Below, piece by piece: positions 41,116 to 64,000 of a stretch of DNA of 64,000 nt. Position 1 is the stretch's first letter, and each line of letters begins with the position of its first letter. This DNA comes from Verrucomicrobiota bacterium (lineage in GTDB: Bacteria > Verrucomicrobiota > Verrucomicrobiia > Limisphaerales > Fontisphaeraceae): the NCBI GenBank assembly GCA_037139415.1, contig JBAXGN010000006.1:1-64000 (forward strand), read 5' to 3'. Below the pieces are notes generated by a model that saw only the letters and a program-made list of their open reading frames with translations, made no database searches and was not told the DNA's origin. Position numbers and translations under genes: made by a program.

Positions 41116-42159
41116 ATGCAAGGTTCGAGTGGCGCATCCACCAACGCTGGCCCCGAGGCAGCGCGACAACGGTACCTCCAGGCATATCGCTGGATGTGCC
41201 TGGCGCGGGTATTGGAAGAAACCATGGCCAGTTTGTATCGCGGCGGGGCGATCCATGGTGGCGTGTTCATGGGGCGCGGCCAGGAGGCGCTCAGCGTGGC
41301 GCTGGGCATCCGTCTCAAACGCGGGGATGTCTATGCCCCTTTGATCCGGGATCAGGCGGGACGCCTGGCCTTTGGCGAAACCGTTCTGGACGCGCTGCGC
41401 ACCGCTTTGGGTTCTGCTGCCGGGCCGATGCGCGGGCGCGACGGGAATGTCCACCGTGGACGCCCGCGGGAGGGACTCTACCCGATGATCAGCCATTTGG
41501 GGGCCATGATTTCAGTGGTCAGCGGGGCGCTGATGGCCCGGCGGATGATCGGTGAAGCCGGGGTCGTGGGGGCGACGTGCATTGGGGATGGTGGCACTTC
41601 CACTGGCGCGTTTCACGAGGCCATGAACCAGGCCACAGTGGAAAAGTTACCCCTGGTGGTTGTGATTGCTGATAATCAGTACGCCTATTCCACCCCCGCC
41701 AGCAAGCAATACGCCTGCCGTTCTTTGGTGGATCGGGCGATTGGCTATGGGTTGAAGGGGGAAGTGGTGGATGGCACCGATCTGGCCGCTTGTCTTGAAA
41801 TGATCGGCGGGGCGGTGGAACGCGCCCGGGCCGGGCAGGGGCCGCAGATGATTGTCGGACACCTGCTGAGATTGTGCGGCCACGGCGAGCATGATGATGC
41901 CAGTTATGTGGACCCGGCGCTGAAACAATCCGCCGCTGGTCGCGATTGTCTTAAAGTCGCAGAAGACTATCTATGCCAACAAGATATGGCGACGCGGGAA
42001 GAGATTGACCGTTGGCGGGTGGAAGCCGTAAAGCAAGTGAATGCGGCGGTGGCCGTGGTGCAGCGCGAAAGCGCGCCGGATCCGTTCCGCGAGGAATGGT
42101 GTGCACTATCCAACCGGCGATTGTTGGACCTGCAACACAATGGAGGGCTGGCGACATGA
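41116..42159 (+). CDS. 2-oxoacid dehydrogenase E1 component, alpha subunit
   Basis: This is the thiamine-diphosphate-dependent decarboxylase subunit of a pyruvate/acetoin/branched-chain-type complex. It has 347 residues from ATG 41116. MCLARVLEETMASLYRGGAI and the phosphorylation-loop-like region with GREGLYPMISHLG are family features. The TPP/Mg2+ motif is GDGGTSTGAFHEAMNQATVE ending in DNQYAYST. The stop overlaps the E1 beta start (ATGA), so the subunits are translated in a coupled way. The closest well-known layout is pdhA-pdhB-pdhC or acoA-acoB-acoC; the substrate cannot be decided, and the CDS lacks the long N-terminal mitochondrial-type extension. Confidence 0.9.
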   Translation: MQGSSGASTNAGPEAARQRYLQAYRWMCLARVLEETMASLYRGGAIHGGVFMGRGQEALSVALGIRLKRGDVYAPLIRDQAGRLAFGETVLDALRTALGSAAGPMRGRDGNVHRGRPREGLYPMISHLGAMISVVSGALMARRMIGEAGVVGATCIGDGGTSTGAFHEAMNQATVEKLPLVVVIADNQYAYSTPASKQYACRSLVDRAIGYGLKGEVVDGTDLAACLEMIGGAVERARAGQGPQMIVGHLLRLCGHGEHDDASYVDPALKQSAAGRDCLKVAEDYLCQQDMATREEIDRWRVEAVKQVNAAVAVVQRESAPDPFREEWCALSNRRLLDLQHNGGLAT

Positions 42160-58373: not shown

Positions 58374-59029
58374 ATGAGCGTCCAATTGAACCGTGAGGAG
58401 CAGAGCCTTCGCGCCGAAATCGAGGTTCGCGTTGAAAAAGCCCGGCAAGCTTTTGCCAAGTCGCATATCAGTGATGAAGTAGCGTTGTGGATTTCGGAGG
58501 CCGGTAAAAAAGCCCATCGCCTGCACCTGATGCTAAAAAACGTGGTTTGGAGCCCAAGCACCACGCTTACATGATCAAGAACCGGGGTATGCAGCCGGAC
58601 AATCCCGATTATTACCAGCACTTCCACCCGCTGGAGGATTTGCTCAAGTTTTTGGAAGATCCATCAGCCAATGACGATCCGGTTGACCAAACCATTGGCG
58701 GATCTTTCACCTTCCGCGTTTACTCCCGACGCTGGAAACGCGAAGACCAATATAGAATCAAGCGTACTGCCGACGGCTGGGAAGTCGCCCATATCGCCAT
58801 CAATGGTCCGTGCGACAAGGGAGGCAAACCCTTTCTTTTCCGGAATTTTGATCAAGATTCCATTCAGTATCCTGCTGGTCTCGCCGGCTGGCTTGAGTGG
58901 CTCTGGACGCGGGCGTCCGAAGATGGCCTTTCCAAAGACGCCGTGCAACAGGCCATTAATCAACTCGCCGCCTGGGTGTCCGCCACTGAAAAAGGCTCTC
59001 CACAAGGAGGCGTCTGGAAAGGATATTGA
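58374..59029 (+). CDS. Unknown protein encoded in two frames joined by a -1 slippery site
   Basis: The first frame starts at ATG 58374 (SVQLNREEQSLRAEIEVRVE) and would stop at 58574. The second frame (-1) carries the rest: RGLEPKHHAYMIKNRGMQPD, FHPLEDLLKFLEDP, SRRWKREDQYRIKRTADGW, CDKGGKPFLFRNFDQDSIQY, then GVWKGY and TGA at 59027-59029. Joined at the A-AAA-AAC heptamer (58535-58541) they make one 218-residue protein; the sequence reads smoothly through HRLHLMLKN/RGLEPKHH. Either programmed -1 frameshifting makes the full product, or one A has been lost from a seven-A run. The C-terminal block reminds me of proteins often carried by integron cassettes; this is memory only. The stop overlaps the cyclase-like gene start by one base. 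Confidence 0.7.
58535..58565 (+). promoter_or_regulatory. Candidate -1 programmed ribosomal frameshift site
   Basis: The zero-frame codons CTA AAA AAC create A-AAA-AAC (58535-58541), a canonical X-XXY-YYZ heptamer. Directly after it, CGTGGT (58541-58546) pairs with ACCACG (58560-58565) and TTGG (58547-58550) with CCAA (58554-58557), giving a 10-bp hairpin with a 3-base loop and a 2-base bulge. The spacer to the heptamer is essentially zero, shorter than the usual 5-9 nt. Confidence 0.55.
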
Positions 59030-59718
59030 TGCGACCAGCTTCAAAATACGGCGTTGTCACCTTCCTCGACGTGCTTGGGTGGAAGGGTGTTTACGACCGC
59101 CACCCCGATGCTATTGACAGCCTCGCCCGCCTCATTGAAGGGGTCCACGCCCGCGCCACCGAAAAACAGCGCGGGCGCATACTAGGTGAAGTCCTGGTGA
59201 AAAGCATTTCCGACACCATAGCCATGTTCACCTTCTGCTCGGACACCGAAATTTTGACAACCATTGAGGTCCATGGCGAACTTTGCCAGTGGCTCATTCC
59301 GGAGTCCATCGAAGCGGAAATCCCTGTACGTGGGGCTACTGCCTACGGCGAATTTGAGATTCGCGACAACATTTTCGTGGGTAAAGCCGTGGATGAAGCG
59401 GCAGCATGGCATGAGCAAGCTGACTGGATTGGCGTCCATCTCCCCCCGCCTGCTGAATACGTTTTCAGTCCCCAAAATCCTTCTGCGGCTTGGCTGCACT
59501 ACAATCCTCCAAACAAAAACCGGCTTGCTTGGACGTCCCATTGCGTGAATTGGACAGCAGGTTGGCTAAATCGAGATCAGAAAGTAGCCCAAATAAAAGC
59601 CAAATTTCGTCGTCTAGGCCCCATCGTTCCAGACATCGCTGCCAAATTCGCCAACACCCTTTCCTTTATTGCTGCTATGTCCGCCCCCAATCTGATCACG
59701 CAGCAGAGGAGAGGCTAA
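59029..59718 (+). CDS. Class III nucleotide-cyclase-like protein, Pycsar-cyclase (PycC)-like
   Basis: The 229-residue protein starts at ATG 59029, whose A is the last base of the preceding TGA; AAAGGA six bases upstream is a fair ribosome-binding site. VVTFLDVLGWKG (Asp14) and VKSISDTIAMF (Asp62) sit where class III adenylate/guanylate/uridylate cyclases carry the two metal-binding aspartates. PVRGATAYGEFEI (R101-G102) then FVGKAVDEAAAWHEQADWIG match the pattern I know from small single-domain cyclases of Pycsar anti-phage systems. The protein lacks a transmembrane or receptor domain. If active, it would make a cyclic mononucleotide second messenger on infection. Activity and base choice are not predictable by eye. 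Next gene: SIR2-TPR, 16 bp away. Confidence 0.6.
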   Translation: MRPASKYGVVTFLDVLGWKGVYDRHPDAIDSLARLIEGVHARATEKQRGRILGEVLVKSISDTIAMFTFCSDTEILTTIEVHGELCQWLIPESIEAEIPVRGATAYGEFEIRDNIFVGKAVDEAAAWHEQADWIGVHLPPPAEYVFSPQNPSAAWLHYNPPNKNRLAWTSHCVNWTAGWLNRDQKVAQIKAKFRRLGPIVPDIAAKFANTLSFIAAMSAPNLITQQRRG

Positions 59719-59734: not shown

Positions 59735-61618
59735 ATGAGTACTAAATCAGAATTCAACTCGAAGCACCCAGGCGTCCTCGTTTCAACGGAGGAAGCGGTG
59801 AGAACGGTCGCTATGCTATTGCAAAAGCGACAGCCCGTTCTGTTTCTTTGCGGGGCAGGCATCTCCTATGCACCACCGGCTTGCGCCCCGCTCTGGCCTT
59901 CCCTTCGCGATGGTCTGCTCACTGCATTTTTGCAGCGCCTGGCAAACACTGGACACCTAACCGATGACGAAGTGCGTACAACTCTCGAGTCTGTGGCAAA
60001 TCTGGCGAAGAAAAACAAGCTATGGATCAAACCGGAAGTCGCGATGCAATGGTTCCACCGCACTTTCCATGATGAATTGTATGGAGCTTTCTCAGTTCTT
60101 CAGCAAGGATCTCCAAATTCAAATCATCAGATTCTCGCCGCATTGGCAAAAAACGGATCCATTTCGAGCTTGCTTACAACCAATTTCGATCTGTATTTGG
60201 AAAATGCCCTTACCCAGGCGCAGGCGGACTTTAGGATTTTCGTAGGCGAATCACCAACGGTAGATACGTTGTCGTTAACGCACTTTATGCCGGCGACTCA
60301 TCGCACGGGAGTTTTTCGGCTCGTCAAAGTCCATGGTACTTTGACACACCCAGAAACCATTCAGGTCACACTGGAACAGGTCGGACATCCGTTTTCCCCC
60401 ATCATCTCTGAACGACTGGCAGGCTTACTTCATGGTATGCATGTGGTTGTCGTCGGCTACAGTGGAAATGACTATGACTTATTCCCCTTCTTGCAGGCGG
60501 AAGCCCCCCGGATGGCGTCTCTTATGTGGCTTTGCCGAGAAATCGAGGAGTTGCATCCGGAAGTACCAAAGCTGCGTTGCCCGGTTTGCGTGACGACAGG
60601 GGATGTAAATCATTTTTTTCGGAGGATTTCTACGGTTTTGAAACTGGCACCGGTAAGGCAATCAAAGACACTGCACTACCAGCAAAAAATCCCTATTGCC
60701 ACTGATCTGCTTGAAAAATGGGCATCCAATCGTGACGAGTTGCGCGTGGCATACACGCTGTCTTCGTTTGCCAGGCACATTGGCCTCTCCGAATTCTCCC
60801 AGAGCATGTGTCGCATAGGAAAGAATCTCTGCACTGCCTGGGAATGCCGGTTTCTTAACGTCCAGGCACTCGCATTGCGCAGGAAATCACCGAAAGACGC
60901 GATGAAACTATATCTTCACGCTGAACACCTGGCACGCTCCTTCAGGAGTGCTGTTCCTGCTACCTACAGCAATATCACAGGCAACATCGGTTCATTATTG
61001 CATGAGTCAGGGCGGCATCGGGAAGCGCTTCGGTGGCTGCACATAAGTAGCCGCTGGGCGAAACGGGTGAAGAATAGGCGGACAACATACGACAATAATG
61101 ACGACATTGGCAATTGTCTGCGGGCAGTAGGGTGTGCCAAAACCGCTGTCCGTTATCATCTCCGAGCCATCCGGCATCACAAAGCGAACAGCAACCTCAT
61201 CGCCCTGTCACTTGCTCTCAACAATCTGGGACTCGCTTACGAGGACCTAAACAACTATCGAGCAGCTTATCGGGTGTTGACCGAAAGCGTTGGACTCAAG
61301 TTCAAGGAAACTGCTGATATTCCAGCCTTGATTCGTGGGCTGCTCGCTCTAGGAATCGCAAGTTCGCGTTTGGGAAAACAGGATGAAGCATTGAAGCATT
61401 TTAGAGATGGACTGAAGTTGTCGTCTGTCGTGAAAGACGACGTGACCGCCACTCATATCCAGTACGAACTTTCGGCTCTTTATCACCGGAAGGGCGATAA
61501 GACTCTAGCTTGGCGTTGCTTCAATATAGCTGAGCGCATGGCCCGTAGGACACCACTGTGGAACAAAGACCGCTACCGCATGAAGCAGATTAAAGAGATC
61601 CAAGTACTATTCCGCTGA
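59735..61618 (+). CDS. SIR2-domain NADase-like protein with TPR C-terminus, candidate defence effector
   Basis: The 627-residue protein has an N-terminal SIR2-like domain (about 20-310). LFLCGAGISYA (GAGIS at 40-44) binds NAD, LLTTNFDLYLE gives Asn150 and Asp152, VKVHGTL gives the catalytic-type His200, and VVVGYSGNDYDLF is the late family motif. All key NADase residues are kept. Residues about 400-610 are tandem TPR units (NITGNIGSLLHESGRHREAL, LNNLGLAYEDLNNYRAAYRV, LGIASSRLGKQDEALKHFRD), typical sensor or scaffold modules. SIR2 effectors of Thoeris, DSR and SPARSA deplete NAD+ after phage sensing. Here it follows the cyclase-like gene and may answer its messenger or sense phage proteins through the TPRs. 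This is a hypothesis. Confidence 0.8.
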   Translation: MSTKSEFNSKHPGVLVSTEEAVRTVAMLLQKRQPVLFLCGAGISYAPPACAPLWPSLRDGLLTAFLQRLANTGHLTDDEVRTTLESVANLAKKNKLWIKPEVAMQWFHRTFHDELYGAFSVLQQGSPNSNHQILAALAKNGSISSLLTTNFDLYLENALTQAQADFRIFVGESPTVDTLSLTHFMPATHRTGVFRLVKVHGTLTHPETIQVTLEQVGHPFSPIISERLAGLLHGMHVVVVGYSGNDYDLFPFLQAEAPRMASLMWLCREIEELHPEVPKLRCPVCVTTGDVNHFFRRISTVLKLAPVRQSKTLHYQQKIPIATDLLEKWASNRDELRVAYTLSSFARHIGLSEFSQSMCRIGKNLCTAWECRFLNVQALALRRKSPKDAMKLYLHAEHLARSFRSAVPATYSNITGNIGSLLHESGRHREALRWLHISSRWAKRVKNRRTTYDNNDDIGNCLRAVGCAKTAVRYHLRAIRHHKANSNLIALSLALNNLGLAYEDLNNYRAAYRVLTESVGLKFKETADIPALIRGLLALGIASSRLGKQDEALKHFRDGLKLSSVVKDDVTATHIQYELSALYHRKGDKTLAWRCFNIAERMARRTPLWNKDRYRMKQIKEIQVLFR

Positions 61619-61953: not shown

Positions 61954-62949
61954 ATGCGGCTCCCCGTGCCATCATATCACTCTGCTAACGCTATAGCTCA
62001 ATCCGTCGCGCCGATTCGTGCTGCATCCCATTCGAATTTGAAGATCCGGGTGGGACCTGACGGGGTCCACCTGTTTAACCGCAGGCACGGCATAAATATC
62101 CTTGCGGACGAAATCCTCCTTCCACCGACTGAGTGGTCCAAGGCACCGCGGCAAGTGTCGATTGCGTTGACAAACACCTGTGACCTCTCTTGCCCGTTCT
62201 GCTTCACTTCAAAGATGCCAGCGACTTTACCTTTGAATCAACTCTTGGATTGGTTGCGGGAACTCGACAGGAATGGGTGCTTAGGAGTTGGCTTTGGAGG
62301 CGGAGAACCAACGCTGTACCGCCAGCTTCCTGATCTCTGTCGGCAGACAACGCATGCTACTGGTTTGGCGGTAACTCTTACTACTCATGGACACCACTTG
62401 GATTATGATCTTATCCGTGCCCTCACCGGCAACGTGCATTTTGTCCGGGTCAGCATGGACGGTGTAGGCCAAACGTATGAGGCTCTCCGTGGCCGCCCCT
62501 TTGCAGAGTTGTGTTCCAAGCTCCAATACCTCCGCGATTTGGCCCCGTTCGGGATCAACTTCCTTGTCAACTCTCGGACGGTCTCTGATTTAGACGCCGC
62601 TACGGATTTGTCAGCGAAAATTGGCGCATCAGAGTTTCTTCTTCTGCCTGAATTCCCAACCGCCACTACCTCAGGCATTGATCCTGGTACAGCTACGGCT
62701 CTACAAAATTGGATTCAACGTTACCGGGGGCCTCTTGTATTAACGGTAGCCGAGGCAGGGGCGGATGGTCTTCCGACTTGCAATCCACTTCCGGAGGAGA
62801 CAGGGCTAAATGCATATGCCCATATTGACGCGACCGGGACATTGAAACGAACTTCGTTTGACGGCCACGGTGTGACGATACGTGCCGTAGGTATCATGCA
62901 TGCTCTTTCCGAACTCCAAGAACTAACATCAACCAAAGAAACACTATGA
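61954..62949 (+). CDS. Radical SAM enzyme of unknown substrate
   Basis: The 331-residue enzyme has the [4Fe-4S]/SAM motif CDLSCPFC (C76, C80, C83) in ALTNTCDLSCPFCF. The GGE-type motif is GVGFGGGEPTLYRQLPDLC, and HFVRVSMDGVGQTYEALRGR and FGINFLVNSRTVSDLDA continue the barrel. Upstream of the motif, LKIRVGPDGVHLFNRRHGIN and ADEILLPP form a short N-terminal strand region. No SPASM cysteine cluster is seen in the C-terminus. The stop overlaps the next start (ATGA, 62946-62949), so it is the first gene of a coupled trio. It is not obviously viperin, and it could modify a peptide, tRNA or nucleotide; the substrate is unknown. Confidence 0.8.
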   Translation: MRLPVPSYHSANAIAQSVAPIRAASHSNLKIRVGPDGVHLFNRRHGINILADEILLPPTEWSKAPRQVSIALTNTCDLSCPFCFTSKMPATLPLNQLLDWLRELDRNGCLGVGFGGGEPTLYRQLPDLCRQTTHATGLAVTLTTHGHHLDYDLIRALTGNVHFVRVSMDGVGQTYEALRGRPFAELCSKLQYLRDLAPFGINFLVNSRTVSDLDAATDLSAKIGASEFLLLPEFPTATTSGIDPGTATALQNWIQRYRGPLVLTVAEAGADGLPTCNPLPEETGLNAYAHIDATGTLKRTSFDGHGVTIRAVGIMHALSELQELTSTKETL

Positions 62950-63365
62950 AAATCTGGCATGGATACGGCTCAGAGCACTCAATGAACTTGGTCATGATCG
63001 GCCACTTCAAAGATACTGTATCCGCCCAAAAAGCGAAGAGCGCAATTGACGAGCTTACTGATGTAATGGGCGCGCCGGAGAACAGCCAGCGTGACGCGGA
63101 GAAATACTCCGATGGCGCGAGGACTGTTCTGGAGAAACTCCAGTTTTACAGCCCCGGTCCCGCTGAACTCGACCAGTTTACATACGACATTCGCTCCGAA
63201 ACAAAGGGCAAGACAGTCGTGATTACGACCGACGAAATTGAGGTTTCAGCATTCCTAAAACTCCTGCTGAACCAGGGGGCACGAGTAGAAGTGTACTCCG
63301 CGCACAACCATCCAGGTACCGGCGAAGGCCGCCGAACGAGTGGAGAGGAACCACCCAATGGTTAA
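62946..63365 (+). CDS. Small conserved protein of unknown function
   Basis: The 139-residue protein starts with KIWHGYGSEHSMNLVMIGHF, a striking opening I associate with a domain of unknown function (possibly DUF6375; recall only). A helical part follows (TVSAQKAKSAIDELTDVMGA, EKYSDGARTVLEKLQF). A beta-alpha end follows: YDIRSETKGKTVVITTDEIE and SAFLKLLLNQGARVEVYSAH. No catalytic motif was recognised. It overlaps both neighbours (4 bp with radical SAM, 8 bp with the downstream gene), so the three products are likely made in stoichiometric or coupled amounts. Its role in the suspected system is unknown. Confidence 0.7.
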   Translation: MKIWHGYGSEHSMNLVMIGHFKDTVSAQKAKSAIDELTDVMGAPENSQRDAEKYSDGARTVLEKLQFYSPGPAELDQFTYDIRSETKGKTVVITTDEIEVSAFLKLLLNQGARVEVYSAHNHPGTGEGRRTSGEEPPNG

Positions 63366-64000
63366 TTGGACAGAATTCGAAAAACTCCCAGGAAGTCAGC
63401 AGCACAATTTCGAAATCCTTTGTCGCTCACTGATATTGGTTCACTATGCCCGCTACGGGCGCTTCGCAGCGTTGGCAAATCAGCCGGGCGTAGAGTTTCA
63501 TCTTGAGCTACGGAGCGCCTGCACACTCGGCGAGGCGAATCAATGGTTTGGGTGGCAGTGTCGATGGTACGATTTGCCGGTAGGCAACCAGTTAGGAGCC
63601 GCACGCCGACAGCAGATAAGCGAGGCATTGGTAAAAACGAAGAAGTCCCTGCCGGGCCTAACCGATTGGGTTCTCTGGACGCGCCACACCCTTACCAAAA
63701 GCGATCAGGAATGGTTTTACGGCCAAACGACTGACTTTCGACTCCACCTCTGGAACTCTGCCGACGTTGAGCACCATCTTTCCGGCGATGGAGAATTACT
63801 CAAGCATACGTACCTCGGCGAGCTTGTTTTGACGTCCCAGATCTTGGAGCAGTCCCACACCGCATCCGTGGCGCAAATCGGCCGACGATGGCTCCCTGAA
63901 GCGCATCAGGCCGTTGAAGCAGAGCGTTTGCTCCGGCAAATGCTCGGGGAAGCGGACTCGTGGGACCAACTAGCTGCCATCAGCGCTGCCACCCGCAAGG
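63358..64000 (+). CDS. Large protein with possible restriction-endonuclease-like N-terminal domain, 3' end cut by window edge
   Basis: The frame starts at ATG 63358 and is open to the end of the window (214 residues seen). FEILCRSLILVHYARYGRFA and LANQPGVEFHLELRS are followed by FGWQCRWYDLPVGNQLGAAR, RQQISEALVKTKKSLPGLTD and WVLWTRHTLTKSDQEWFYG. The order 'helix - GVE/D-x-x - Q-x-K/R' is that of Mrr-like PD-(D/E)xK nucleases, where QxK is replaced here by Q-x-R. The family is long and probably continues into an NTPase or effector domain outside the window. It overlaps the small gene upstream by 8 bp. The nuclease reading is inference; conservation in a defence context is suspected. Confidence 0.65.
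   Translation, partial: MVNWTEFEKLPGSQQHNFEILCRSLILVHYARYGRFAALANQPGVEFHLELRSACTLGEANQWFGWQCRWYDLPVGNQLGAARRQQISEALVKTKKSLPGLTDWVLWTRHTLTKSDQEWFYGQTTDFRLHLWNSADVEHHLSGDGELLKHTYLGELVLTSQILEQSHTASVAQIGRRWLPEAHQAVEAERLLRQMLGEADSWDQLAAISAATRK

Follow-up and report, generated by a model that had tools for sequence, protein, structure and literature searches.

The window, by which we mean the whole 64-kb stretch of DNA that was analysed, holds near its end a pair of genes of which the first, carrying a PF21648 domain, is broken by a change of reading frame, and the second, with a predicted class III nucleotide-cyclase fold, is intact. The coordinates of these genes, of the features at the frame change and of the neighbouring genes are given in Table 1. 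The first 55 residues encoded by the 5' part resemble those of related proteins, and the remaining 11 are out-of-frame residues that precede the stop. The two open frames overlap from 58505 to 58574, and a heptamer of the slippery type lies inside this overlap. As the preliminary description of the locus had stated, the heptamer stands in the correct zero-frame register and the two adjacent frames can be joined without a gap, in which case the product would have 218 aa, against 66 aa for frame 0 alone. The description did not mention that the frame-0 stop overlaps a -1-frame ATG.

Table 1. Features of the PF21648 and cyclase-fold gene pair, the frame change and the downstream genes (window positions unless a locus is named)
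Feature	Position	Strand	Remarks
PF21648 and class III cyclase-fold gene pair	58374-59718		also at loci L002, L003, L004, L005, L006, L011, L012, L013, L019
5' part of broken gene	58374..58574	+	frame-0 ORF, 66 aa, stop TGA 58572-58574
A AAA AAC	58535..58541	+	frame-0 reading CTA AAA AAC; six A's (58535-58540) and C (58541); frame-change point and putative one-base indel site
Predicted bulged hairpin	58541..58565	+	10 bp, 2-nt bulge, about -9.7 kcal/mol
3' part of broken gene	58541..59029	+	-1 frame, open from after a stop at 58505 through TGA 59027-59029; 162 residues, carries PF21648 (M1E1E6-like) domain
ATGA	58571..58574	+	frame-0 stop overlapping the -1-frame ATG at 58571
Partner gene, class III nucleotide-cyclase-fold	59029..59718	+	intact, 229 aa; start overlaps stop of broken gene (TGATG)
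SIR2_2 and TPR protein	59735-61618		intact, 627 aa; next gene 3' of the pair; SIR2-type defence matches in PADLOC
Viperin-like radical SAM protein, then at once DUF6375 protein	61954-63365		PADLOC pVip, E 2e-17
Avs-like protein	63340-64000 and L021:5341-9678		1445 aa; Avs2-like N-terminal match, weak NACHT match; open past window edge
OLD-type ATPase gene	L021:11724-13106		after the Avs-like gene

The frame break among relatives

Nine independent relatives of the broken gene were compared, of which five are loci from the genome_contigs scan, three come from whole genomes (G531, G514 and G606) and one from viral_contigs. This count was reached once duplicates had been removed (L007 and L009 duplicate L002 and L004 and were not counted), and the copy in L014, a remnant with three stops, was left out of the intact set. 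The record titles of the relatives name Limisphaerales, Verrucomicrobia, Lentisphaerae, Zixiibacteriota and Ignavibacterium, and the five relatives from genome_contigs share 54-67% identity with the 3' half of the window gene. A closer relative was found neither in 57 related genomes nor among the viral_contigs, where a gapped DNA pattern was used, and the phage and plasmid collections gave distant partial matches only.

All nine relatives pass through the site in a single uninterrupted frame without internal stops, and A AAA AAC stands at the junction in none of them. A run of six A's within 30 nt of the site is missing in eight of the nine. At the codons of the break the distant relative L012 reads CTC AAA AAA ACG, seven A's kept in one frame. 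L019 has other in-register heptamers at the site (T TTA AAG and A AAG GGC), yet its gene is unbroken. Only in the window gene is the family profile matched in two pieces, positions 1-58 (E 4e-14) and 55-217 (E 5e-86), and these meet at the A run. The preliminary description had read the site as a canonical frameshift signal that joins the two halves of a gene, and had named an alignment of homologues as the check, in which relatives uniformly in one frame with AAAAAAA would speak against a regulated switch. All nine relatives proved to be in one frame, with the seven A's present in L012, and the alignment goes against the switch. It leaves the canonical signal unsupported as a working one while lending support to the alternative offered in the same description, namely the loss of one base from the A run or an error. 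An overlap of two genes by design was also considered and is ruled out by the one continuous frame of the relatives.

Among the genes compared, the break is private to the window gene, and neither of its halves has decayed further. Identity between the window gene and L002 is 0.60 in the N-terminal half and 0.66 in the C-terminal half, and that between intact pairs ranges from 0.31 to 0.60 and from 0.52 to 0.74, respectively. With both halves conserved to the degree seen in intact relatives, the break is either recent or spurious, and an indel of recent origin or an error in the consensus would fit. We consider it very probable that the frame break is a private one-base loss in the A run, by mutation or by consensus error, and not programmed recoding. 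The ancestral state would have been a continuous gene of about 218 codons, encoding a helical N-terminal domain followed by a PF21648 M1E1E6-like C-terminal domain. One base would have been lost near codon 56, from a short run of A's, and translation would now stop at residue 66. In our judgement the loss is probably a genuine recent mutation, most likely one that inactivates the gene; the base would then be truly missing in the cell, and the full-length product would be lost.

The slippery heptamer, the hairpin and other accounts of the break

The loss of one A from CTA AAA AAA C is enough to leave A AAA AAC in register. A deletion alone therefore yields a heptamer at the junction, and the coincidence of the two is no independent evidence for recoding. 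Across 16,199 codons in 34 intact ORFs of the window, 73 in-register X_XXZ_ZZN heptamers were counted, and three of these are A_AAA_AAC itself. The 10-bp hairpin said to follow at once is present as a prediction, but it is neither exceptionally stable nor conserved. The 60 nt that start at 58541 have a folding z of -0.29, and the 24-nt hairpin segment alone has one of -2.0; about 10% of 26-nt coding windows in the 64-kb window fold at <= -8 kcal/mol, and none of the five relatives that were folded has a counterpart hairpin at the same place. A stimulatory structure would be expected some 5-8 nt downstream and to be conserved; in E. coli such structures generally start 5-8 nt past the slippery site (PMC4066793), whereas this hairpin begins on the last base of the heptamer, with a spacer of 0, which bears out the earlier remark that its spacing is shorter than in proven cases. 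We judge the hairpin to be incidental.

If this lineage alone used programmed or otherwise productive -1 ribosomal frameshifting at the heptamer to make products of 66 and 218 aa, this would account for the register of the heptamer, the open -1 frame and the hairpin downstream, and both halves look constrained, as in a gene that is still productive. The nearest relatives compared are all below 90% identity, which would be consistent with recoding confined to the species, and some IS elements very probably make use of heptamers of this kind, although A_AAA_AAC is named as one of low efficiency in E. coli (PMC4066793). Together with this low efficiency, the zero spacer, the unremarkable folding z, the missing counterpart hairpins and the unbroken frame of every relative make such frameshifting very improbable. 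We give even less credence to the A-run break as a leaky or reversible off-switch of a two-gene cyclic-nucleotide-type defence module in this lineage.

Within the preferred explanation of a one-base loss, one sub-case is that the A run was misread in sequencing, assembly or consensus calling and that the gene is intact in the organism. The position of the break inside a homopolymer, the undecayed halves and an assembly of 378 contigs are all compatible with it, but runs of six or seven A's are easy for short-read chemistry. The window also holds more than 60 A/T runs of at least six bases, and codon-periodicity decoding, a method that misses short N-terminal pieces, revealed no other frame switch in its long coding blocks. 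The sole direct switch, at 42151/42152, falls where one open frame of about 900 bases adjoins another of that size, and it was taken for a boundary between neighbouring genes. The clean coding blocks elsewhere in the window thus provide a mild argument against a high error rate, and we regard an error as unlikely, if still a serious contender.

A real indel might also be partly tolerated. Translation would end at the frame-0 TGA and re-initiate at the overlapping ATG to yield a product of 152 aa that retains the complete PF21648 domain, and the cyclase-fold gene would still be translated. Such an outcome is suggested by the ATGA overlap, by the location of the PF21648 domain wholly downstream of the break and by the model of a relative, in which the helical N-terminal part is separate from the beta/alpha C-terminal part. 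However, the ATG is the invariant internal methionine M67 of the relatives, and the stop/start overlap is therefore a coincidence of the shift. Moreover, all relatives conserve the N-terminal half, which is probably required, and a Shine-Dalgarno sequence was not found at the usual distance; we hold re-initiation to be improbable. Phase variation, with A's gained and lost reversibly, is scarcely credible: the break does lie at a homopolymer, but six or seven A's are short for a phase-variable tract, and the A6 run is missing from eight of the nine relatives. Rescue of a poly-A frame by transcriptional slippage, which was weighed as well, has been documented at 11 A's, against the six present here, and the same length counts against phase variation (PMC4256274).

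The PF21648 protein, its partner and their surroundings

The 3' half of the broken gene matches the Pfam family PF21648, M1E1E6-like integron cassette protein, with 30.8 bits (cut-off 27; E 3.5e-7), and the family profile matches PDB 3fy6 (E 1e-6). In an AlphaFold2 model of the intact relative L002, residues ~1-100 form a helical N-terminal part predicted with confidence; the C-terminal part that follows is of the beta/alpha type and modelled with lower confidence. A Foldseek search with the model of the intact PF21648 relative, the C-terminal part of which is of low confidence, returned nothing significant. As judged from the model, the break would come where the second N-terminal helix ends, and would leave in the 66-aa product a helical fragment that is incomplete. 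The family also shows some variation in architecture. In L012 (1489-2538) and L013 (1108-2172) the PF21648-like C-terminal part is tandemly duplicated within one protein. The remnant of the PF21648 domain in L014 (1331-1645) belongs to a genome that gave no cyclase-fold match, and it is apparently an independent decayed copy. Distant relatives with the C-terminal domain alone, annotated as hypothetical, occur in Burkholderia phage BgManors32 (OK665842.1: 56497-56805) and on many Priestia megaterium plasmids.

The model of the partner protein has a mean pLDDT of 67, and Foldseek ranks 1-49 are all nucleotidyl cyclases (best E 4e-4), while none of the cyclase models in Pfam, NCBIfam and PADLOC matches the gene. 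Two aspartates, D14 and D62, are invariant in all ten sequences and, from their position in the motif, are probably the two metal-binding residues. The cyclase-fold gene lies directly 3' of the PF21648 gene in the window and in all nine relatives. Among 388 sampled genomes of the phylum, each of the five strong cyclase-fold matches (E < 1e-90) adjoins a PF21648 gene.

The pair is seen in several phyla, mostly in restriction or defence surroundings. Near it are type I restriction specificity genes in L004 and L011, a PD-(D/E)XK nuclease gene also in L004, DarT and macro-domain genes in L002 and an Mrr-like gene in L003, and in the window, where it belongs to a defence island, it is followed by the SIR2-type, viperin-like and Avs-like genes listed in Table 1. 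An integrase gene lies near the pair in L019 (5001-6325), a phage-like IMG/VR contig, which suggests that the pair is mobile. PADLOC models matched neither of the two window genes of the pair. Its position makes the pair a candidate for an uncharacterised defence module. That it represents an undescribed two-gene module of the cyclic-nucleotide type, leaving any switch aside, is a tentative proposal to which we give somewhat less than an even chance. A PF21648 protein and a cyclase-fold protein encoded side by side, next to restriction, DarT, Mrr and Avs-like genes, could form a signalling defence module, and this conserved pair is more interesting than the frameshift itself.

Comparison with known systems

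As a frameshift, the case matters little. The lesson is that a one-base loss in an A run mimics a canonical slippery site, and that a check of conservation is needed. For Antonov et al. (2013), conservation of the site is a requirement for a programmed frameshift, and singletons supported by homology count as indels or sequencing errors (PMC3711429). The window gene resembles this class of singleton frameshifted genes, young pseudogenes or errors, in every respect that we compared: its homologues are intact and in one frame, the break occurs in one genome only, the site is not conserved and the indel lies in a homopolymer; we see no notable difference. The likeness to -1 frameshifting of the dnaX and IS911/IS3 type consists in an X XXY YYZ heptamer in register, an open -1 frame and a downstream hairpin. 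Unlike in those systems, however, neither site nor structure is conserved here, the spacer is 0 and not 5-8 nt, the heptamer is of low efficiency and the relatives are in one frame. The partner gene, a putative cyclase, shares its predicted fold and two aspartates at the expected metal positions with class III nucleotidyl cyclases, one of which is the uridylate cyclase 8jsz from Anabaena; it differs from them in having no Pfam, NCBIfam or PADLOC cyclase match and no recognised gene for a cyclic-nucleotide-binding effector beside it. The broken gene itself is linked to the M1E1E6-like proteins by its above-cut-off Pfam match and by the profile match to 3fy6. In contrast to 3fy6, which has 126 aa and consists of the domain alone, the family described here adds a helical N-terminal domain of ~100 residues and is paired with a cyclase-fold gene.
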